A DNA stretch of 64,000 nucleotides. Source: Bacteroidota bacterium (GTDB lineage: Bacteria > Bacteroidota > Bacteroidia > B-17B0 > Aurantibacillaceae). Below, piece after piece: positions 14,614 through 24,345 of the stretch. Both the position numbers and the translations under genes were made by a program. The stretch spans positions 1 through 64,000 of the forward strand of contig JAFDYI010000013.1 in assembly GCA_018267475.1 (NCBI GenBank). The letters run 5' to 3'. Position 1 is the first letter of the stretch. Every line of letters starts with the position of its first letter. Under the pieces are notes generated by a model. That model was not told the DNA's origin, made no database searches, and saw only the letters and a program-made list of their open reading frames with translations.

Positions 14614-14688
14614 GGCCCGTTGGTCAAGGGGTTAAGACGCGTCCCTTTCACGGACGAATCAGGGGTTCGATTCCCCTACGGGCTACCA
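14614..14688 (+). tRNA. tRNA-Glu (UUC)
   Basis: Full cloverleaf: acceptor GGCCCGT pairs with ACGGGCT (one G-U at the first pair), D arm GTC...GAC, anticodon stem CGTCC/GGACG with loop CTTTCAC and anticodon TTC at 14647-14649, and T arm AGGGG TTCGATT CCCCT. Discriminator A at 14685 and CCA encoded at 14686-14688. The accessory region begins right after it; I found no duplicated tRNA 3-prime end that would prove integration. Confidence 0.95.
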
Positions 14689-15027: not shown

Positions 15028-16113
15028 ATGGGTAAATTCAACAAAAAAATACCGCATAACAACCTGCCATTGTTACCGCCAAAGGCAGATATTGAAACAA
15101 AAGAAATACTTCGTAAAACGATTTCGGCAGGTAGGGCTTTGGCTCAACTGAACGGAACTTTGCTCAATTTACCAAACCCAACTTTGTTTTTAGACACGAT
15201 TTATTTGCGGGAAGCAAAAGCGAGTTCGGAAGTTGAAAATATTATCACAACAAATGATGAACTTTATAAATCGTTAGTTGCCGACAGAAAAGTTGAAAAT
15301 TCAGCTACAAAAGAGGTTTTGGGTTACAAAGAAGCTCTTTGGTTAGGCTTGGAACGGTTAAAGAAAAAGCCGTTTATTACAACAAACCTTTGTATTAGCC
15401 TTGTTCAATGTATCAAGCAAAACACCGCTTCCATTCGGGTTACACCCGGAACTACATTAAGTAATACAAAAGGCGAAATAATTTACACGCCGCCAAGCGG
15501 AGAGTCAATAATTCGTGAGAAGTTGGCAAACTTGGAAAAGTTTATGAACGAAGATAAAAGTATTGACCCGCTTATTAAAATGGCTTTAATGCACTACCAA
15601 TTTGAAGCCATTCATCCTTTTGCAGATGGTAACGGAAGAACAGGAAGAATTTTATTGTTACTGTATCTCAAACTTTCGGGTTTACTTGACACACCAGCCA
15701 TTTATTTGAGCGAATACATTATCAAAAATAAAGCAGATTATTACAAAAGTTTGCGAAGTGTAACCGAAAATAACGATTGGGAAAATTACATTTTGTATAT
15801 GTTGAATATGATTGAAGAAACCTCAAATAAAGGCTTGGAACATTTGAATAAAATTACAACTACAATGGAAAAAACGGCGGGCGAAATAAAAGCAAAATTA
15901 CCCAAAATGTATTCAAAAGACTTGGTAGCGATTTTATTCCGTTTGCCTTACACCAAACGCCAACATTTGATTGATGAAAATATCGGAAACCCAAAAACAG
16001 CCGGAAACTATTTACAAACATTGGAAAAACACGGGTTTTTAAAATCGGTAAAAGTTGGGAAAGAAAAATTGTATTTGAATGAGCGGTTATTGAAAATTTT
16101 AGAAGAAAAATAA
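15028..16113 (+). CDS. Class II Fic protein with C-terminal winged helix
   Basis: Fic-domain adenylyltransferase of 361 residues that would transfer AMP (or another nucleotide moiety) from NTP to a protein hydroxyl. The core motif HPFADGNGRTGR is intact at residues 196-207 (catalytic His196). Upstream, SSEVEN at 66-71 fits the autoinhibitory (S/T)xxxE(G/N) helix, so it is class II: self-inhibited through an N-terminal helix. The flap region contains RVTPGTTLSN near 137. The last 70 residues look like a winged HTH (FRLPYTKRQHLIDE-IGNPKTAGNYLQTLEKHGFL), as in Fic proteins that bind their own promoter; three operator-like repeats lie just upstream. Target unknown. It opens the accessory region after tRNA-Glu and has its own promoter. 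Confidence 0.92.
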   Translation: MGKFNKKIPHNNLPLLPPKADIETKEILRKTISAGRALAQLNGTLLNLPNPTLFLDTIYLREAKASSEVENIITTNDELYKSLVADRKVENSATKEVLGYKEALWLGLERLKKKPFITTNLCISLVQCIKQNTASIRVTPGTTLSNTKGEIIYTPPSGESIIREKLANLEKFMNEDKSIDPLIKMALMHYQFEAIHPFADGNGRTGRILLLLYLKLSGLLDTPAIYLSEYIIKNKADYYKSLRSVTENNDWENYILYMLNMIEETSNKGLEHLNKITTTMEKTAGEIKAKLPKMYSKDLVAILFRLPYTKRQHLIDENIGNPKTAGNYLQTLEKHGFLKSVKVGKEKLYLNERLLKILEEK

Positions 16114-16168
16114 AATATACAAATAGAAACTTCAAATAATACTTAAACTATTCAGCTTTGTTGTTTTG

Positions 16169-16176
16169 TATTTTTG
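16169..16176 (+). promoter_or_regulatory. Candidate promoter of the helicase-retron unit
   Basis: TATTTTTG fits TAnnTTTG. Predicted start near 16183, giving an 80-nt leader that holds a perfect hairpin. No other such element lies between here and the retron ncRNA start that I could find. Confidence 0.45.
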
Positions 16177-16201
16177 CTGAACCGCAAGGGCTCAACACCT
16201 A

Positions 16202-16224
16202 TGTTGAAAAATTATTTTTCAACA
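16202..16224 (+). other. Perfect 10-bp hairpin in the leader of the DnaB-like gene
   Basis: TGTTGAAAAA (16202-16211), loop TTA, TTTTTCAACA (16215-16224). There is no T tract after it on the plus strand, so it is not a standard terminator for this direction. It could be an operator or an RNA leader structure. Confidence 0.55.
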
Positions 16225-16262
16225 ACGGAAAATAAACCGATACAAAAAGGTAATTTTATAGA

Positions 16263-17363
16263 ATGAAACAGGAACTAAAACATAAAATCGAAAATATTAT
16301 CAGCAACAACTCTAATGCCGACGAAAAAGAAATGGTGTTCCAGTTGAAGCAATTACTTTATGAAACCGAATGGCAGAGCAGCGTTAACAAAGATTCAAAA
16401 AGCATTGCCGACCTTGTTTCGAATAGCCTAAATCAGCTAAAAAGCAACGATGAAAATAACAACGCTATAAAAAGTGGCTTTGCTGATTTTGACAAAATGT
16501 ATGGTGGTTTTGAATTAGGTGAGCTTGTTGTAATTGGTGGGCGCCCCGCTATGGGAAAAACACAATTGCTTGTAAATTTATCCCTCCATATTTCACAAAC
16601 AATCCCCGTTCTTTATTTCACTTTTGATTTATCGGAACATCTTTTGACCAGCCGCTTTATTTCTTCGGTTTCGGGTATTCCCGCAAGTAAAATTTTACAG
16701 CGCAACCTTACAGAGGAAGAAAGAAACACATTGTTGTCTGTTGAAAGCAAATGGAGTAAATACAAATTATTTATCAACGACTGCTACAACAATTCGTTTA
16801 CAGCTTTTAAAGCACATTGTCAAAAGCAGATAGAAGAAAATGGAGTAAAAGTAATTTTTGTTGATTATTTGCAAATGATGAGTTCAAGCAAATACAGAAA
16901 CAACCGCGAACTTGAAATCAGCTACATTAGCAGAGAGTTAAAAAATATGGCCAAAAATTTTAATGTTTGCGTGATAGCAACAAGTCAACTGAGCAGAGCT
17001 GTTGAATCAAGAGGTGTTTCAAAACATCCTCAACTTTCTGATTTAAGAGAAAGCGGAGCTATTGAACAAGATGCCGACAAGGTACTGTTCCTGTATCGCC
17101 CTGAATATTATGGAATGGAATGCGACGAAGAGGGCAACAACACGGCCGGATTAGCAGAAATTATTTTGGCAAAGAACAGAAACGGAAGTTTAGGAAGTGT
17201 CAAACTTTTAAGAGACCAGTACTTTACTAATTTCAAAAATTTTGACAGATACAAAAATGAGTTCTCTTTTTCTCAAAGCAGGCTAAATGAAACGGCGGCT
17301 AACCCCCCGAATTTAAAAAACCGAATAGACAATTTAGATTTAGAATCAGAAGTGCCTTTTTAA
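16263..17363 (+). CDS. DnaB-like RecA-fold ATPase lacking the DnaB N-terminal domain
   Basis: A 366-residue protein whose residues 65-330 match the C-terminal motor domain of replicative helicase DnaB. Visible: Walker A GGRPAMGKT (92-100, Lys99), Walker B VIFVDYLQMM (Asp201), the motif SQLSRAVESR at 241 followed by PQLSDLRESGAIEQDAD, and the arginine-finger region AKNRNGSLGS at 303. The DnaB N-terminal collar is absent; residues 1-60 are a short helical segment with a linker-like SIADLVSNSLNQL. The Walker A-proximal FSLEM motif, carrying the catalytic Glu in DnaB, reads FDLSE (121-125). Its stop is 12 nt before the retron ncRNA. I infer it belongs to the retron as effector or accessory; an orphan phage-type helicase fragment is the alternative. 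Confidence 0.85.
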   Translation: MKQELKHKIENIISNNSNADEKEMVFQLKQLLYETEWQSSVNKDSKSIADLVSNSLNQLKSNDENNNAIKSGFADFDKMYGGFELGELVVIGGRPAMGKTQLLVNLSLHISQTIPVLYFTFDLSEHLLTSRFISSVSGIPASKILQRNLTEEERNTLLSVESKWSKYKLFINDCYNNSFTAFKAHCQKQIEENGVKVIFVDYLQMMSSSKYRNNRELEISYISRELKNMAKNFNVCVIATSQLSRAVESRGVSKHPQLSDLRESGAIEQDADKVLFLYRPEYYGMECDEEGNNTAGLAEIILAKNRNGSLGSVKLLRDQYFTNFKNFDRYKNEFSFSQSRLNETAANPPNLKNRIDNLDLESEVPF

Positions 17364-17375
17364 AATGAAGATATG

Positions 17376-17538
17376 GAGCCGTTGTTTTAAGAATTATGAT
17401 GTCAAACGTTTATGACATTGCGGTTGTGTTCCGCAACCCATGAAGCAGTGGAAAGAGTGAATGGCGCCTTTATTGCGATGCTCACTGCGTTCCGCTTCTC
17501 ATAAAGGCGATTAAGTCAAAGATAATTTACAACGGCTC
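17376..17538 (+). ncRNA. Retron msr-msd non-coding RNA
   Basis: The ends form the retron a1/a2 inverted repeat: GAGCCGTTGT (17376-17385) and ACAACGGCTC (17529-17538), 10 bp perfect. Inside are two hairpins suited to msr: ATGTCA/TGACAT (17399-17404 with 17413-17418, 8-nt loop) and TTGCGG/CCGCAA (17418-17423 with 17431-17436, 7-nt loop TTGTGTT). The 3-prime part, which would be msd, has an interrupted long stem: GAAGC (17442-17446) with GCTTC (17494-17498) and AGTGA (17456-17460) with TCACT (17482-17486). A competing 9-bp pairing CGCCTTTAT/ATAAAGGCG crosses it. It ends 9 nt before the RT start codon. Exact branching G and msd boundary not determined. Confidence 0.85.
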
Positions 17539-17547
17539 TTTTTTATT

Positions 17548-18678
17548 ATGCCAACAATAGAAGAAATAGTAACCTTTTCCAAGGCCCATAAAAGTAACAT
17601 TCAAAAATACTTTAATGGCGGACACCCCTATTCAACCCTCCCTAAACTAGTACAAAAAATAAAGAAGCACGAACGGAATGCCCTGTTCTTGCTTTCAACA
17701 GAAACGCCAACCGAACTTTGTACGTTTTTAAAAACTCCGTTTTTTCAATTGGAAGAAATCATAAATAACCCTATTTACAAACAGTACGAAATCAAAAAAA
17801 AGAGAGGGGGAAACAGACAAATTTATTCGCCAGAAAAGAAATTAAAGGCCATTCAAAGGCGGTTAAACTACTTCCTGCAAGCGTATTATTTATGGATAAG
17901 GCCAAACGAGGTTTTTGGTTTTGTTGTTAATCCGCATTATCAGGGAACATTCTGCAACATTGTTGAAAACGCGAAACCGCACACCGGAAAAAAACACATA
18001 TTGAATATGGACTTAAAAGATTTTTTTCCGAGTATATCAGCAAGCCGAATAAAGTCGGTTTTTGCATCTTCCTATTTTAATTTCAGCGAGCAAATAGCTA
18101 CAGCCTTAGCGCTTTTGACCACCTATGAAGGCAAGCTTCCTATTGGAGCGCCAACCTCGCCTGTTATATCCAACTTTGTTTGCTTTCAATTAGATGCCGA
18201 TTTAAAAAATTTTTGCGAAACAACCGGATTGCAATTTACACGCTATGCAGACGACTTGACTTTTTCGTCTAACCTTCTCATTTCAAACGAAACCGTTCTT
18301 GACATCATCAACCTGATAAAGAAAAACGGTTTTGAAATAAATGAAAAAAAACTTCGGTTGAAATCGTCAAACCGGAAACAAACCGTTACAGGTTTAACCG
18401 TAAACGAGAGGGTAAACATTGATAGAAAACTATTGAAGAAAGTAAGAGCCATGTTGCACGACCTCACCACAAACGGCATTGATGTTGCAGCTAAACGACA
18501 CTTTAATTGGAGTGGCGAAACGGACGCTAAACAGCGTAGTAAATTCATCCATCGTTTGGAAGGATATATCCATTTTGTTGGACAAGTGAGAGGAAAAAAC
18601 GATGCTGTTTACACTAAATTAAAACAACCGCTCGATAAGTTTTCAGCAACACAGCAGCGAGCGGAACAAATGTGGTAG
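17548..18678 (+). CDS. Retron reverse transcriptase
   Basis: A 376-residue RT that would copy the msd part of the upstream RNA into branched multicopy ssDNA (msDNA). Domain order: N-terminal helices 1-80; KKKRGGNRQIYSP fingers (84-95); retron signature NAxxH as NAKPH at 141-145; catalytic Asp155 in NMDLKDFFPSI; GAPTSP at 200-205; the YADD box at 233-236; and the second retron signature VTG at 280-282 within NRKQTVTGLTVN, followed by a basic thumb. All motifs of an active retron RT are present, and no fused effector domain follows. The ATG at 17548 lies 9 nt after the a2 repeat, as in other retrons. Partner gene is probably the DnaB-like ATPase upstream; nothing downstream is obviously an effector. 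Confidence 0.95.
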   Translation: MPTIEEIVTFSKAHKSNIQKYFNGGHPYSTLPKLVQKIKKHERNALFLLSTETPTELCTFLKTPFFQLEEIINNPIYKQYEIKKKRGGNRQIYSPEKKLKAIQRRLNYFLQAYYLWIRPNEVFGFVVNPHYQGTFCNIVENAKPHTGKKHILNMDLKDFFPSISASRIKSVFASSYFNFSEQIATALALLTTYEGKLPIGAPTSPVISNFVCFQLDADLKNFCETTGLQFTRYADDLTFSSNLLISNETVLDIINLIKKNGFEINEKKLRLKSSNRKQTVTGLTVNERVNIDRKLLKKVRAMLHDLTTNGIDVAAKRHFNWSGETDAKQRSKFIHRLEGYIHFVGQVRGKNDAVYTKLKQPLDKFSATQQRAEQMW

Positions 18679-18809
18679 CAACACAGCATCTCGCAGAGTA
18701 GTTTTTCGCCAAGCGCATAAATAAAAAGTTTTTTCCGGAGGGCTGAGCCTCTTATTTAAAATACCATTCATGGCCTGCTAATCAATCGTGTGGTTTTTTC
18801 ATATTCTGT

Positions 18810-18838
18810 GGTTACCTTTTTAATCCTTAATTATCAAT
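18810..18838 (+). promoter_or_regulatory. Predicted ECF sigma promoter, copy 1
   Basis: GGTTACC (18810-18816), 14 bp, TTATCAAT (18831-18838), then 6 bp and AACCAATTAA (18845-18854). The same blocks at the same spacings precede the gene at 21074. Likely -35/-10 for the ECF sigma encoded in this operon. Confidence 0.65.
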
Positions 18839-18866
18839 AGTTGTAACCAATTAAAAATGAGAAATC

Positions 18867-19154
18867 ATGAAAAGAGAAATCCTCACCATCGCAATTGCTT
18901 TAGCAGCCACGGTTGCGTTAGCCCAAAGCTCGGAATATGTTAGCGGCTACACAAAATCAAACGGCACTTATGTACAGGGGCATCGTCGTACCGTTGCTAA
19001 TAACACTCCGTATGACAATTACAGCACGGCGCCAAATATAAATCCGTACACCGGTAAAAGGGGGGCTAAGCATTATGATAACGTGCCCCCTTACAATACA
19101 AACTACGCTTCTACCCCTGTTCATACAGGTTGTGCCGGCCACAGAAAGAGATAA
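18867..19154 (+). CDS. Small secreted protein, hypothetical
   Basis: A 95-residue protein with a signal peptide (MKREILTIAIALAATVALAQ). The mature part contains VSGYTKSNGTYVQGHRRT, close to a V-x-G-Y-x-R/K-x-x-G-T-Y-V-x-x-H-x-R motif seen in many small exported bacterial proteins of unknown role; the rest is rich in Asn, Tyr, Thr and Pro. It is the first gene of a three-gene operon with an ECF sigma factor (33 bp downstream) and a membrane-bound candidate anti-sigma factor, under a promoter also found upstream of 21074. An envelope-stress sensor or regulon output is plausible but unproven. Confidence 0.75.
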   Translation: MKREILTIAIALAATVALAQSSEYVSGYTKSNGTYVQGHRRTVANNTPYDNYSTAPNINPYTGKRGAKHYDNVPPYNTNYASTPVHTGCAGHRKR

Positions 19155-19187
19155 ATCTTGTACAAAATAATTGCTTATTTTTAACCC

Positions 19188-19751
19188 ATGCCCAACAACC
19201 CATCAGACAAAGAAGTAATAGAATTACTTAAAGAAAGCAGCGACAATCTTGATGTTGTTTACAGAAAGCATCACGATTACTGTATGAATTTTATGAAAAA
19301 GATTAATTATAACGAAGAATTAAATCAAGATATTTTTCATGATTCTTTGATTGTTTTGTATGAAAAAATAGTAAAAGGAGATTTTGTGTTAAGCTGTTCT
19401 ATACAAACCTTTTTAAACTCTATTTGCAGAAACCAAATTCTTGTGCGGCTAAAGAAATCAGAAAAACACACTCCGTATTCCGAAGAATTTGATGCAAGAA
19501 TTACCGATTGGTATGAAACAGATGAGCTTGAAAACGCGACACGAACACAGGCAATAATTAAGGCGTTAGAAATGCTAAAGGAACTAGGAGGCAAATGCTA
19601 TGAAATTTTACGTCGTTATTTCTACGAAAATAATTCAATGGAAAAAATAGCGTACGATTTGGAATATACCAACGCGGATAATGTTAAGAATCAAAAATCC
19701 CGCTGTCAGAAAAAACTTAAAGAATTGGTCTTTCAATTATTAAACAAATAA
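19188..19751 (+). CDS. ECF-type RNA polymerase sigma factor
   Basis: A 187-residue sigma-70 family member. Region 2 spans about residues 20-90 (HDYCMNFMKK...DIFHDSLIVLYEKI...TFLNSICRNQILVRLKK) and region 4 about 120-180 (LEMLKELGGKCYEILRRYFYENNSMEKIAYDLEYTNADNVKNQ), the latter with the HTH that contacts the -35 box. No region 1 or 3, as expected for an ECF sigma. It lies between a secreted peptide gene and a single-pass membrane protein gene (6 bp downstream). The duplicated GGTTACC-14-TTATCAAT promoter before 18867 and 21074 is the probable target, implying autoregulation. Confidence 0.9.
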   Translation: MPNNPSDKEVIELLKESSDNLDVVYRKHHDYCMNFMKKINYNEELNQDIFHDSLIVLYEKIVKGDFVLSCSIQTFLNSICRNQILVRLKKSEKHTPYSEEFDARITDWYETDELENATRTQAIIKALEMLKELGGKCYEILRRYFYENNSMEKIAYDLEYTNADNVKNQKSRCQKKLKELVFQLLNK

Positions 19752-19757
19752 AATCCG

Positions 19758-20978
19758 GTGAAAGAAATTGATGTTATTAAAACTTTTGTTGCCGAATCCC
19801 TTAATGATAGCGAGAACCAAGCTTTAAAATCATTTCTGGGGTCAGAAGATTCATATACTAAGTTTTTAGACAAGCTTGTAAAAATACTTATTGAGCAGGA
19901 TAAAACAATTACGCTTAGTCGGTTTTTAGATTTGCACAACCTTTCGGGGTTGCATAGAAACCTTTCGCGGCGTAAGGAAGAAATTATAACGGAAATAGCG
20001 GAATTAAGCGCGGGCGGTTATGCCTCCGAAATAACCCAGTGGTTGCAACAATCGAAAAACGAAACGTATTTAAATCATCTTAATTTTATACGCGACACGA
20101 AAACCGGGATAAAAATAACAGAGCGAGAGGCCCTAAAAAAGAAGCTTGTTAACATGAATAAAATGGACGCTTTTCCATTATCTGAAACAGAAATAAAGGC
20201 GGGAATTAAAGCAATTGAAAGAAAAAAACTAAAAGAAAAACTACGCTCTTTTGAAAAACACAACCAAACAAATACTGCCGAAAAAGGTAAATTCAAATAT
20301 TCTGCCCTGTTTCTTTTCATCATAGCCAGTACATTTGTTTTAGCTATTTCAATTCCTACCGTAAGGAACTTTATTAAACAAGAATTCCATAAGGTTTTCT
20401 ATAAAGAACAACCCGCTGCTCTCGCAAACGAGATGATACCAAAAGAGAATAAACAAACGGCTATTGGTGATACGGCAAAACCAATTGTTTACGATACTTT
20501 GGCAAAACCCATTGACACTTCAAGCGCAATTAAAAAACAAAAGAGAGTATTTTTAGGGGGAACGAAAAGCAAGTCCATCACCGCATACAAAAACTATTTT
20601 ATTAAACATAAAGCCGACTTAGACTCTATAGAGGGCATCTGGACTATCAAAGAAAAAAACAGTAAAAATTATACTTGTGCCATCTTTAAAGTTAGTGAAC
20701 AAAAGTACGAACTGCGTTACTTTAGTCAGAACGGCACATGGGAAAAAGCTGACCATACGTATTATTTTAAAGCACAAGCAAACTCTAAAAATTATCGTTA
20801 CTCCGAATATTTAGAAAACAAATTGATTGGTAACGGCGTTTTAAGATTTGTTTCACCCGCTTCTTTTAGGTGCAAATATGACTATAGCGAGGAGTTTCTA
20901 CAAGCTTTAGGCGCAAAAAAAGGTGCTAAGGCTCATTTTATTTTAACCGCTCACAAGAATGAAAGGGAAGGTTTTTAA
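19758..20978 (+). CDS. Single-pass membrane protein, candidate anti-sigma factor
   Basis: A 406-residue protein with GTG start 6 bp after the sigma gene, so translation is probably coupled. The first 170 residues are charged and helical (cytoplasmic), one strong transmembrane helix lies at about 185-205 (SALFLFIIASTFVLAISI), and the remainder is outside. The periplasmic part has a Thr/Ala-rich linker and a C-terminal domain (about 290-390) with GIWTIKEKNSKNYTCAIFKV and LIGNGVLRFVSPASF, perhaps a small beta barrel. Topology and position fit an anti-sigma factor, but I see no recognisable ZAS or FecR domain, so this role is inferred from context. Confidence 0.6.
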   Translation: MKEIDVIKTFVAESLNDSENQALKSFLGSEDSYTKFLDKLVKILIEQDKTITLSRFLDLHNLSGLHRNLSRRKEEIITEIAELSAGGYASEITQWLQQSKNETYLNHLNFIRDTKTGIKITEREALKKKLVNMNKMDAFPLSETEIKAGIKAIERKKLKEKLRSFEKHNQTNTAEKGKFKYSALFLFIIASTFVLAISIPTVRNFIKQEFHKVFYKEQPAALANEMIPKENKQTAIGDTAKPIVYDTLAKPIDTSSAIKKQKRVFLGGTKSKSITAYKNYFIKHKADLDSIEGIWTIKEKNSKNYTCAIFKVSEQKYELRYFSQNGTWEKADHTYYFKAQANSKNYRYSEYLENKLIGNGVLRFVSPASFRCKYDYSEEFLQALGAKKGAKAHFILTAHKNEREGF

Positions 20979-21017
20979 CGGGTTTTTCAGCCTAATTTAA
21001 AATTCCTTTAAAATCAT

Positions 21018-21046
21018 GGTTACCTTTTAAAAGCTAGATTATCAAT
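21018..21046 (+). promoter_or_regulatory. Predicted ECF sigma promoter, copy 2
   Basis: GGTTACC (21018-21024), 14 bp, TTATCAAT (21039-21046), then 6 bp and AACCAATTAA (21053-21062). Identical architecture to copy 1, while the bases between differ. Confidence 0.65.
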
Positions 21047-21073
21047 TGATGAAACCAATTAATAATAACAGCC

Positions 21074-22243
21074 ATGAAAACACCACTTTTATTTTTACTA
21101 CTGGTAAGTTTATCATTAGTAAACGCACAAACAAGTATTAAGTCAAGTCTTGCAATCAAATCCGACACATTTAGTGTTCCTAAATACAAAGCGGCAGCCG
21201 GCACAGACCTGAGCACCAAGACTTTACTGTTAACGGTTAATTTCGGCGAGTTCGCTTTTAATGAAGTAAAGGAAATCGAAGGACTAAATACGTCTGTAAT
21301 CACAAACGTTGACTTAGTTTATACCAAATACCCCGAAGGGGAGGATTTCACCGAATTGAATAGAAAAAGAATAGAATACCTACACTTAATGTGCCCCGGT
21401 GTTTTTAGTAGTAATATGACCAAGTGGAGAATAATTGCCCAAACAGGGTGTAAAAACGTGAACACAGCCAAGAAATATTTTCATGGATTTGTAATCACAT
21501 ACAGGCCGGGACCAACTGCCGAAAGTTTTGCTGATGAAGTAAGCTATATTAAATCGGCATGGAAACATGCCCCAGCCTTCAAAGATTCCACGGTCATTAA
21601 AACTTTTCAAAGAAACAAGTGGAAACACGCAACTGTAGTTTGCGATTTTACCGGAAGCATGGCTCCGTACATTGCCCAAACATTAATATGGTATAAATTA
21701 ACCTTTCAGACAAAAGATATTTCAGAGTTTGTTTTCTTTAACGATGGCGATGAAACCCCCAACTACAAAAAAAAGATTGGTAAAACAGGTGGTGTTTATT
21801 ACAGCAACACTTTTTGTAAAGACAGTGTGCTGAAAACAGCATACAAATGCTTAAAGGGCGGTTACGGTGGCGATGTGCCTGAAAACAATATCGAAGCCTG
21901 TTTGTTTGCGATAAAAAATAATCCAAAAATAAAAGAAATTGTAATGATTGCAGATAATTGGGCGCCGATGCGCGACTACTCTATGTTATCCGCAATAAAA
22001 GTGCCGGTACATATTATTCTTTGTGGAATTAATTCGGAATTCGGCATCAATCCGCAGTATCTTGATCTCGCAAGACAAACCAACGGCACGGTACACACGT
22101 TAGAACAAGATATTTCAAAATTATCTAAAGTAGCCGAAGGCCAAACAATAGAAATAAATGGCGCTACATACAAAATATTAGCCGGCCGTTTTATAAAAGT
22201 TACAAAAAACCAAAATGCAGTTGCTACTGTAAGCTCCTCCTAA
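21074..22243 (+). CDS. Secreted vWA-like protein, ECF regulon member
   Basis: A 389-residue exported protein with a signal peptide (MKTPLLFLLLVSLSLVNAQ). A vWA-like domain begins near residue 190: VVCDFTGSMAPYI carries a DxTGS metal-site motif, followed by FVFFNDGDETPNYKK, a Gly-rich stretch (GGYGGDVPENN) and the core strand IKEIVMIADNWAPM, then VPVHIILCG. The N-terminal 170 residues are not recognised but include VDLVYTKYPEGEDFTELNR. The C-terminal portion (TIEINGATYKI) is short. The preceding promoter matches that of the sigma operon. Residues 151-240 are duplicated in a fragment just downstream. Function unknown. Confidence 0.75.
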   Translation: MKTPLLFLLLVSLSLVNAQTSIKSSLAIKSDTFSVPKYKAAAGTDLSTKTLLLTVNFGEFAFNEVKEIEGLNTSVITNVDLVYTKYPEGEDFTELNRKRIEYLHLMCPGVFSSNMTKWRIIAQTGCKNVNTAKKYFHGFVITYRPGPTAESFADEVSYIKSAWKHAPAFKDSTVIKTFQRNKWKHATVVCDFTGSMAPYIAQTLIWYKLTFQTKDISEFVFFNDGDETPNYKKKIGKTGGVYYSNTFCKDSVLKTAYKCLKGGYGGDVPENNIEACLFAIKNNPKIKEIVMIADNWAPMRDYSMLSAIKVPVHIILCGINSEFGINPQYLDLARQTNGTVHTLEQDISKLSKVAEGQTIEINGATYKILAGRFIKVTKNQNAVATVSSS

Positions 22244-22273
22244 AAGGATTGCTCAAAAGTAAGTTTTTTGTTT

Positions 22274-22624
22274 AGTTTTGCTGATGAAGTAAGCTATATT
22301 AAATCGGCATGGAAACATGCTCCAGCTTTCAAAGATTCCACGGTCATTAAAACTTTTCAAAGAAACAAGTGGAAACACGCAACTGTAGTTTGCGATTTTA
22401 CCGGAAGCATGGCTCCGTACATTGCCCAAACATTAATATGGTATAAATTAACCTTTCAGACAAAAGATATTTCAGAGTTTGTTTTCTTTAACGATGGCGA
22501 CGAAACTCCCAACTACAAAAAAAAGATTGGTAAAACAGGCGGTTTCAACGACAAAAAAGAATTGGAATTATTCCTTGTTGAAGAACTAAAAACAGGATAT
22601 AAAACAGAACTCAATTTTGACTGA
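22274..22624 (+). pseudogene. Truncated second copy of the vWA-like gene
   Basis: Positions 22274-22543 repeat 21524-21793 (offset 750 bp, 270 bp) with 5 differences, all third-codon-position C/T changes that leave the protein unchanged. The frame is kept and continues with 26 unrelated codons to a stop at 22624. There is no real start codon (the frame opens at a TTG without upstream region), no signal peptide and no C-terminal half of the domain. It is best read as the remains of a paralogue or recombination product, not a working gene. Confidence 0.75.
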
Positions 22625-22829
22625 AAACGGGGCGATCTGCTAACATTGGTTTTGTGTAATGGTGGGTGATGTGGCTAATGGACCATTCTATCTCGTATCA
22701 ACTTTTGTGGTGTATTGACAGTTTTATGCTCCAAAATCCGCCACTGCGCTAAGCGCAAGCGCATTTGGTAGTTAAGCCTACCTATTAAAAGAAAAACATA
22801 AAAAAATTGCTTTTATGGAAAAAACGGTT

Positions 22830-22837
22830 TAATTTTG
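22830..22837 (+). promoter_or_regulatory. -7 element before the 22868 ORF
   Basis: TAATTTTG fits TAnnTTTG; predicted start about 22844, which would place the short ORF at 22868 first on the message. Confidence 0.4.
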
Positions 22838-22867
22838 CACATGTTAACCCCTTAAAATTAAAAAATT

Positions 22868-22918
22868 ATGGCTTGTTTAGATGTAGAATCTGTAAGGGAA
22901 AAGGCGTCTTGTATCTAA
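22868..22918 (+). CDS. 16-codon leader ORF, or 5-prime part of an interrupted gene
   Basis: ATG at 22868 opens 16 codons (MACLDVESVREKASCI) ending in TAA at 22916-22918. The next gene, at 22922, is in the same frame with only one codon (AAT) between. Either this is an upstream leader peptide, or the gene originally began here and has acquired a nonsense codon. The promoter position favours translation from 22868. Confidence 0.35.
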   Translation: MACLDVESVREKASCI

Positions 22919-22921
22919 AAT

Positions 22922-23185
22922 ATGGAAGAAAATGCTTTAAAAAAAGGAGCGGCATTAATTGCAAAAGACTTTAAAGGATATATTTTTAATAACTTTATGG
23001 TTGATGTATTTCAAAGAAAATATCTTGATAGTTTGCCAACATCTGCATATGAAAAAATGGGAGCGAATTTGTTCGACGCTTTTTTAAATAGATATGTTGT
23101 AAATGTAGATCCCTCTGATATTGTTAAGTGTCCTAAAATTACAATTATAATTTGTTTGCTTTGTGCCATGCCTTTGGGAGACTAA
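22922..23185 (+). CDS. Hypothetical protein, possibly interrupted
   Basis: An 87-residue frame (MEENALKKGAALIAKDFKGY...) without signal peptide; mostly helical and hydrophilic, with a hydrophobic end (ITIIICLLCAMPLG). I recognise no family. It is in frame with the 16-codon ORF upstream, separated by TAA-AAT, so the true product may be longer or the gene broken. Its stop overlaps the next gene start by one base (TAATG at 23183-23187), which couples it to the aspartic-protease lipoprotein. Confidence 0.45.
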   Translation: MEENALKKGAALIAKDFKGYIFNNFMVDVFQRKYLDSLPTSAYEKMGANLFDAFLNRYVVNVDPSDIVKCPKITIIICLLCAMPLGD

Positions 23186-24345
23186 TGAAAAAGGGATATT
23201 TTTTATTTATATTTTTTACAGTAGCTTCGTGTAATACGGTTTTTATTACAAAGTCTGCCATTATAACATCTAAGGCACACGTATCTATTTTAGGAGAGAA
23301 ACAAGTTTTACCTTACGAAGATGTTTTTCGCACCATAGTATTAACCGTTAAAATAAAAGGACAACCATATCGCTTTATTTTTGATACCGGGGCGGGCGGC
23401 ACGGTTATATCAAAAGAGTTGGCTAAAGCGCTTAATTTAGAAACAGAAGGAGGTATTGCCACAAGTGATGCGCACGGCATTGTACAAAAATTGTCGGTTG
23501 GCTATATTGATACAATGTTTTTAGGCAAAATAGCTTATACCCACGTAGGGGTGTTGGTTAGCGATTTTAATAAGGGCGCTATTTTTTCGTGTTTTAAAAA
23601 TATAGACGGCATATTGGGTACGAATGTGATTAAGTTGAATAATTGGCAAATAAATTTTGACAGCGCAACAGTAAGTGTTTTTGATATAAACGCCCCACTC
23701 CCTACGCAAAACACAAAATCAGTTCCGTTTTCTATGATAAACAGAACGCCTTTTGTTGATTTTTCCCTTAATGGCGCCAAAGAGCGTTTTATGATTGATA
23801 TGGGAAAAACTGGGGGAATTTCGGTGTCGCCCCAAACAAAACTTCATTTAACCCCCTTTGCAACCATGGTTGGATATTCTGCTTTTGGTGCTTTTGGCGG
23901 CGCCTTTGATACCACCCAAATGTATAAAACAACACTTTCTAACCCCACGCTAACGGTTTCTAACGAAACCATCACGCAATCAAAAAAACTAGGCTCTTTA
24001 ATTGGAAAGGTGTTTTTAGAAACCCGTTGCTCTTCTGTTATTTTTGATTTCAAAAACAAGTCGCTTTTTTTAAACGAAAGGCCACAAAAAGAAAATAAAC
24101 ATTCCTCCTACGGCTTTAGTTGCGCTCCGCTTGGAAACGTGCTGATTTTAAGCACTAAGCTGCTTCATTTTTCTGACGAGGTAGATCAACTAAATATAGG
24201 CGATACTATTAAAGAAATAAACAACGCATCGGCAAACCCCTGCGATATGTTTACTGAGCTAAGTCGTGCTCAAAAGAATAAAGAAACTATTTTGCTTAAA
24301 TTTTCAAACAACAAAACCCTATCTTTATCGCCTAAACCTTTTTAG
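23185..24345 (+). CDS. Retropepsin-like aspartic protease lipoprotein with PDZ domain
   Basis: About 386 residues. The ATG at 23185 opens a lipoprotein signal (MKKGYFLFIFFTVASC, lipobox VASC), which is preferred over the open frame from 23152. A retropepsin-like half follows: FIFDTGAGGTVISKELA carries the D-T-G active-site motif near residue 63, with DGILGTNVI downstream. A second, similar half has FMIDMGKTGGISVSP, where D-M-G replaces D-T-G. The C-terminal 80 residues look like a PDZ domain (VDQLNIGDTIKEINNASA). Probably an envelope protease; substrate unknown. prmA starts 2 bp after its stop. Confidence 0.75.
   Translation: MKKGYFLFIFFTVASCNTVFITKSAIITSKAHVSILGEKQVLPYEDVFRTIVLTVKIKGQPYRFIFDTGAGGTVISKELAKALNLETEGGIATSDAHGIVQKLSVGYIDTMFLGKIAYTHVGVLVSDFNKGAIFSCFKNIDGILGTNVIKLNNWQINFDSATVSVFDINAPLPTQNTKSVPFSMINRTPFVDFSLNGAKERFMIDMGKTGGISVSPQTKLHLTPFATMVGYSAFGAFGGAFDTTQMYKTTLSNPTLTVSNETITQSKKLGSLIGKVFLETRCSSVIFDFKNKSLFLNERPQKENKHSSYGFSCAPLGNVLILSTKLLHFSDEVDQLNIGDTIKEINNASANPCDMFTELSRAQKNKETILLKFSNNKTLSLSPKPF

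Follow-up and report, generated by a model that had tools for sequence, protein, structure and literature searches.

In the RpoE/RseA system of Escherichia coli, a sigma2-sigma4 protein and an adjacent single-TM partner are encoded by a self-regulated operon, and the targets are envelope and secreted proteins. The -35 box of RpoE-like ECF systems is of the GGAAC type. The locus described here, located in a 64-kb window (the whole stretch of DNA that was analysed, from genome G000), has the same general arrangement, with predicted self-regulation and predicted secreted targets; however, no anti-sigma domain can be recognised in its TM partner, it is carried on islands and rarely found, and its -35 box is GGTTACC instead of the GGAAC type.

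The locus can also be compared with the CASP-sigma circuit of type III-E CRISPR, in which the sigma inhibitor is Csx30, a protein cleaved by the TPR-CHAT protease Csx29 (PMC10028731). The likeness consists of an ECF sigma factor with a partner and predicted self-regulated sites within the locus, and TPR-CHAT proteases are encoded nearby in two relatives (G034 and L064); however, the relatives' TPR-CHAT proteins have signal peptides and are probably periplasmic, and the island partner is a TM protein whose profile matched no solved-structure sequence. Neither a CRISPR effector such as Cas7-11 nor a CRISPR array turned up in the genes read at the locus, and a Craspase-type system in G000 was rejected after a PF12770 search of the genome returned zero matches; because G000 has no CHAT protein, we do not claim type III-E membership.

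We consider it highly probable that the locus encodes an autoregulated accessory-island ECF sigma factor that drives its own operon and genes for secreted proteins and is presumably restrained by its single-TM neighbor. The regulon probably exists, although its general kind is already known: it is an ordinary circuit in an interesting setting.

The sigma operon and its promoter frameworks

The genes and candidate promoter elements, all on the + strand, are as follows.

18810..18838, +, promoter 1, upstream of the sigma operon: GGTTACC (-35-like, 18810-18816), N14, TTATCAAT (-10-like, 18831-18838)
18845..18854, +, AACCAATTAA of promoter 1, probably inside the 5' leader
18867..19154, +, 95-aa protein with a signal peptide, 'SNGTYVQGH.RT' family, first gene of the operon; its L060 and L064 homologs have the motif upstream
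19188..19751, +, ECF sigma factor, 187 aa, island clade
19758..20978, +, 406-aa protein with a GTG start, one TM segment (~179-206) and a helical N-terminal half; candidate anti-sigma factor
21018..21046, +, promoter 2, upstream of the vWA-like gene: GGTTACC (21018-21024), N14, TTATCAAT (21039-21046)
21053..21062, +, AACCAATTAA of promoter 2
21074..22243, +, 389-aa secreted protein with a weak vWA match (PF25106, 20.3 bits, cut-off 27)

The sigma gene belongs to the first operon, as the earlier note had proposed: the genes at 18867-19154, 19188-19751 and 19758-20978 are separated by 33 and 6 nt. The 187-aa protein is an ECF (group IV) sigma factor with sigma2 and sigma4 domains only; it matches TIGR02937 with 48.6 bits (above the cut-off of 42.9), and a profile search finds ECF chains. 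Its AlphaFold2 model (six input sequences) has a mean pLDDT of 80, and the best Foldseek matches of this model are AlgU, SigH, RpoE and SigW (probability 1.00, E ~0.002, low TM-scores). A FecI-like identity was rejected (TIGR02985, the Bacteroidetes sigma model, gave 53.3 bits vs a cut-off of 126.4), as was a FecI/FecR type of locus, with no Pfam match to a FecR-type anti-sigma factor or a TonB-dependent receptor among the neighbors in 15028-24342.

The gene next to sigma encodes a single-TM protein in all five orthologous loci, with 155-195 residues in the N-terminal part that precedes the TM segment; anti-sigma factors are laid out in this way. The 406-aa protein has no match to any anti-sigma family, and its structure model has low confidence and is too poor for use. 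It is likely the anti-sigma factor of the island sigma; because it matches no known family, this is a role that we infer.

The two frameworks reported by the earlier note are exact: GGTTACC-N14-TTATCAAT-N6-AACCAATTAA occurs at 18810 and at 21018 with spacings of 14 and 6 in both. The bases between the boxes were said to have diverged, which is correct for the spacers as a whole but not for their first four bases; because this TTTT is common to both, the upstream box is better written as TGGTTACCTTTT. In the 64-kb window, the 29-bp pattern with 0-2 mismatches is found at 18810 and 21018 alone, and the third match has three mismatches (chance level). Scored with a position matrix trained on the island sites, these sites reach 23-39 (36.5 for both 18810 and 21018) and the remainder of the 64 kb scores no higher than 14.5; the training set includes the two window sites, so the gap to background is informative and the score itself is not. 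With an AACCA-extended pattern, the reversed-pattern control gave zero matches in the 87 family genomes. On the window mismatch scan, the reversed-pattern control and the matrix gap, we rejected a chance motif. An Rfam scan of 16000-23500 gave no match, and we found no description of a GGTTACC sigma-factor promoter in the titles and abstracts retrieved by a literature search.

The secreted vWA-like gene had been proposed as a direct target. Promoter 2 is indeed located upstream of it; the vWA assignment, in contrast, is weak, with PF25106 below its cut-off. Separately, a 270-nt piece of this gene (21524-21793) recurs 750 nt downstream (22274-22543) with 98% identity in a 118-aa ORF, representing either a recent partial duplication or an assembly artefact.

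The downstream element AACCAATTAA is exact in both window sites, but it is not a required part of the framework: its AACCA part, located where the transcript start is expected, is present in 8 of the 17 island sites and missing in the other 9, so we rejected it as a necessary element. Judged by conservation, recognition does not depend on AACCAATTAA, which could be an element of the leader or reflect shared ancestry. AACCA also bears on the possibility that the sites are operators for some other DNA-binding regulator, read as a TGGTT...AACCA dyad, and not sigma promoters: the inverted repeat is found at several sites and reaches 10 bp in the C5 copies described below. However, the 9 sites that have lost the AACCA half keep both promoter boxes, and a paralogous sigma family has the same two boxes upstream of itself, making an operator extremely unlikely.

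Co-occurrence of the motif and the sigma factor

We searched 395 genomes of the class with the fixed pattern GGTTACC-N14-TTATnAAT-TGATGAAACCA, allowing up to two mismatches, and the same 395 genomes for the sigma factor at a threshold of E <= 1e-35. Both searches retrieved G000, G034 and G220 only, that is, the genomes that hold the motif and those that encode a close sigma are an identical set (3/3; hypergeometric p ~1e-7). The pattern was designed from sites in G000, G034 and G029, so G220 is an independent case: this genome, from a different family, was picked up by the motif alone and then shown to encode a 61% identical sigma ortholog. The contig with this ortholog also has six sites in a stretch of ~14 kb, and one site lies 154 nt upstream of the sigma start. 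Thus, the motif is not widespread in genomes without the sigma; the exception is an orphan in G029, which lacks a close sigma but has one perfect island-type site (L061 7783, equal to C15:53782) at a distance of ~2.6 kb from a tRNA-Ser gene. The order-level sample consists of the same 87 genomes as the family sample, its sole addition being a two-mismatch match in G060.

Orthologs of the island sigma are rare and are 49-73% identical (L062, on the same contig as G034:C46; L063; L064; G220); with it they form one clade that excludes the core paralogs (support: ultrafast bootstrap 89, SH-aLRT 94). A viral or plasmid origin was rejected: plasmid and phage relatives are just 25-31% identical, and the lone exact motif among viral sequences belongs to a prophage, is not close to any gene start and was judged to be chance.

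Autoregulation, as proposed in the earlier note, is supported at the sequence level by the presence of the motif upstream of the sigma operon in four of the five orthologous loci (G000, G034, G220 and L064); the independence of these comparisons is limited because just five such loci are known. The fifth, L063, contains the sigma and three sites, none pointing at it. Homologs of the 95-aa protein (59% identical in G034, 52% in L064) are encoded elsewhere on the opposite strand in those genomes instead of heading the sigma operon as in G000, and yet the motif is upstream of this gene family in 3/3 genomes despite relocation.

The 2.76-Mb G000 assembly contains three additional sites, each with one mismatch; the genome-wide scans that found them were fixed-pattern searches.

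C1:23034, - strand, TTATAAAT, 38-40 nt upstream of a 267-aa secreted protein gene start
C5:47458, - strand, TTATAAAT, 38-40 nt upstream of a 267-aa secreted protein gene start
C5:48523, - strand, TTATAAAT, 38-40 nt upstream of a 267-aa secreted protein gene start

The regulon is thus larger than the two promoters first described, with at least five candidate promoters in G000 (one for the sigma operon, one for the vWA-like gene and one for each of the 267-aa paralogs). All five sites precede either secreted-protein genes or the sigma operon, and the first genes behind all five encode apparent N-terminal signal peptides. The 267-aa gene copies are 94-97% identical, and one has an in-frame stop; two are in tandem and one is dispersed (L017 4397-6535; L018 5157-6035). 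GGTTACC is precisely where similarity begins in the dispersed copy, as would be expected had promoter and gene moved together.

Recent copying of a promoter-gene unit could by itself explain the similarity of the sites, with no common regulator; the 267-aa copies are recent duplicates, two of them in tandem, and G220 has two near-identical promoter-gene copies. However, the two window sites are located before unrelated genes and have different spacers, the sites in G220, L063, L064 and G034 keep both boxes and the fixed spacing before unrelated genes, and motif and sigma co-occur across families. Copying alone is very unlikely.

A core sister sigma family as control

Nearly every family genome encodes one core sigma that is ~31-36% identical to the island sigma. 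The core sigma of G000 (C21:21479; L019 5357-7067) resembles the island sigma in its -35 box, the 22-nt offset to TAT, its autoregulatory position and the TM partner encoded by the next gene; it differs in its -10 (GTATTAA vs TTATnAAT), in its partner, a membrane protein with a Trypsin_2 domain, and in its presence in nearly all family genomes. In 30/31 loci, the core sigma is preceded by GGTTAC-N15 and then by at least six of the seven bases of GTATTAA (including L019, L021-L048, L071 and L072; these loci are related, so the 31 are not independent cases), ~59-112 nt before the matched sigma start; in shuffled controls, a core-type site occurred in 8 of 20000 350-base stretches. Five more distant ECF factors (L015, L016, L073, L074 and L075) have no core-type site upstream. 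Because the core paralogs carry such a site and the distant ECF factors do not, the -35 box GGTTACC and the 22-nt offset to TAT are, to judge from these sequences, properties of the sigma lineage, with a predicted -10 of TAT-n-AA.

The two families differ in single bases: directly before TAT, all 31 core sites have G and all 17 island sites have T, A or C, and directly before GGTTAC, core sites have G/A and island sites T/C. The base before TAT is a candidate specificity switch between the island and core sigmas. These bases also bear on whether the core paralog (C21) mainly reads the island sites, with the island sigma redundant or cross-talking. The core promoters (GGTTAC-N15-GTATTAA) are highly similar, and G029 has its perfect island-type site with the core sigma alone; however, no island site has the G before TAT that all core sites have, the base before GGTTAC differs as well, and genomes with only the core sigma have no island-type sites, except G029. 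We judge reading by the core sigma to be improbable. Direct control by the island sigma, the reading of the earlier note, is supported by the motif/sigma co-occurrence (3/3 in 395 genomes), the sites at 4/5 operons and the 30/31 loci in the core family.

Predicted circuit and island setting

In the circuit that we propose, the island-borne ECF sigma (19188-19751) would recognise TGGTTACCTTTT-N10-TTATnAAT promoters and so would drive its own operon (95-aa secreted protein, sigma and single-TM protein) through the promoter at 18810, the secreted vWA-like gene through that at 21018, and the 267-aa secreted protein gene in its three dispersed copies. In the cytoplasm, sigma may be bound by the N-terminal half of the 406-aa protein; the other, periplasmic half of this protein may sense a signal or be cleaved; release of sigma would then result in positive feedback and an envelope loaded with secreted proteins. 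The purpose might be envelope stress or defence.

The setting of the sigma differs among the relatives. In G034, genes for a TPR-CHAT, an M48-like TPR and a papain-like protein follow in the sigma operon, and each of these proteins has an apparent signal peptide; in L064, the order is sigma, TM protein, M48-like and TPR-CHAT. Taken together, the genes for TPR-CHAT, M48-like TPR and papain-like proteins with signal peptides in the relatives' sigma islands occupy the following stretches.

L062 9753-15545
L060 1726-5931
L064 2139-6876

Defence models (SoFic, retron RT, FRG type and AbiL) are matched by neighboring genes at several of the loci, which suggests that the sigma module travels in defence-type islands. 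A tentative extension, which we think unlikely, is a CRISPR-free envelope-sensing defence switch: the secreted proteases of the islands (TPR-CHAT, M48-type and papain-like in G034; TPR-CHAT and M48-type in L064) would cut the TM protein in its periplasmic part upon envelope attack, free the dedicated sigma and thereby switch on the entire island. Such a switch would be the periplasmic equivalent of Craspase-sigma; in G000, other secreted proteins would replace the proteases.

Several features of the region are recorded as observations. A SoFic-type Fic gene (15028-16113) is located just past tRNA-Glu (14614-14688), where the accessory region may have integrated. A DnaB-like helicase gene is followed, after ~185 bp, by the gene for a retron-clade reverse transcriptase without a fused effector (16263-18678 in the window; L069 11945-14259); the two members of this pair are 39% and 46% identical between G000 and G220. 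Two hairpins lie in the helicase-RT gap, a shared one of the form GGUUGUGU-CC-GCAACC and a longer one; together they are a candidate retron RNA, for which the overall folding z-scores are weak (-0.9 and -2.1). A literature search found no description of a retron with a DnaB partner.

The analysis assigns a predicted promoter to a rare, mobile ECF sigma of uncultured Bacteroidota and another to its widespread core sister, and the one-base difference in the -10 makes these a testable pair for the insulation of duplicated sigma factors. The promoter would also provide a handle on what the islands, which are found among defence-type genes and in two cases encode probably periplasmic TPR-CHAT proteases, respond to.
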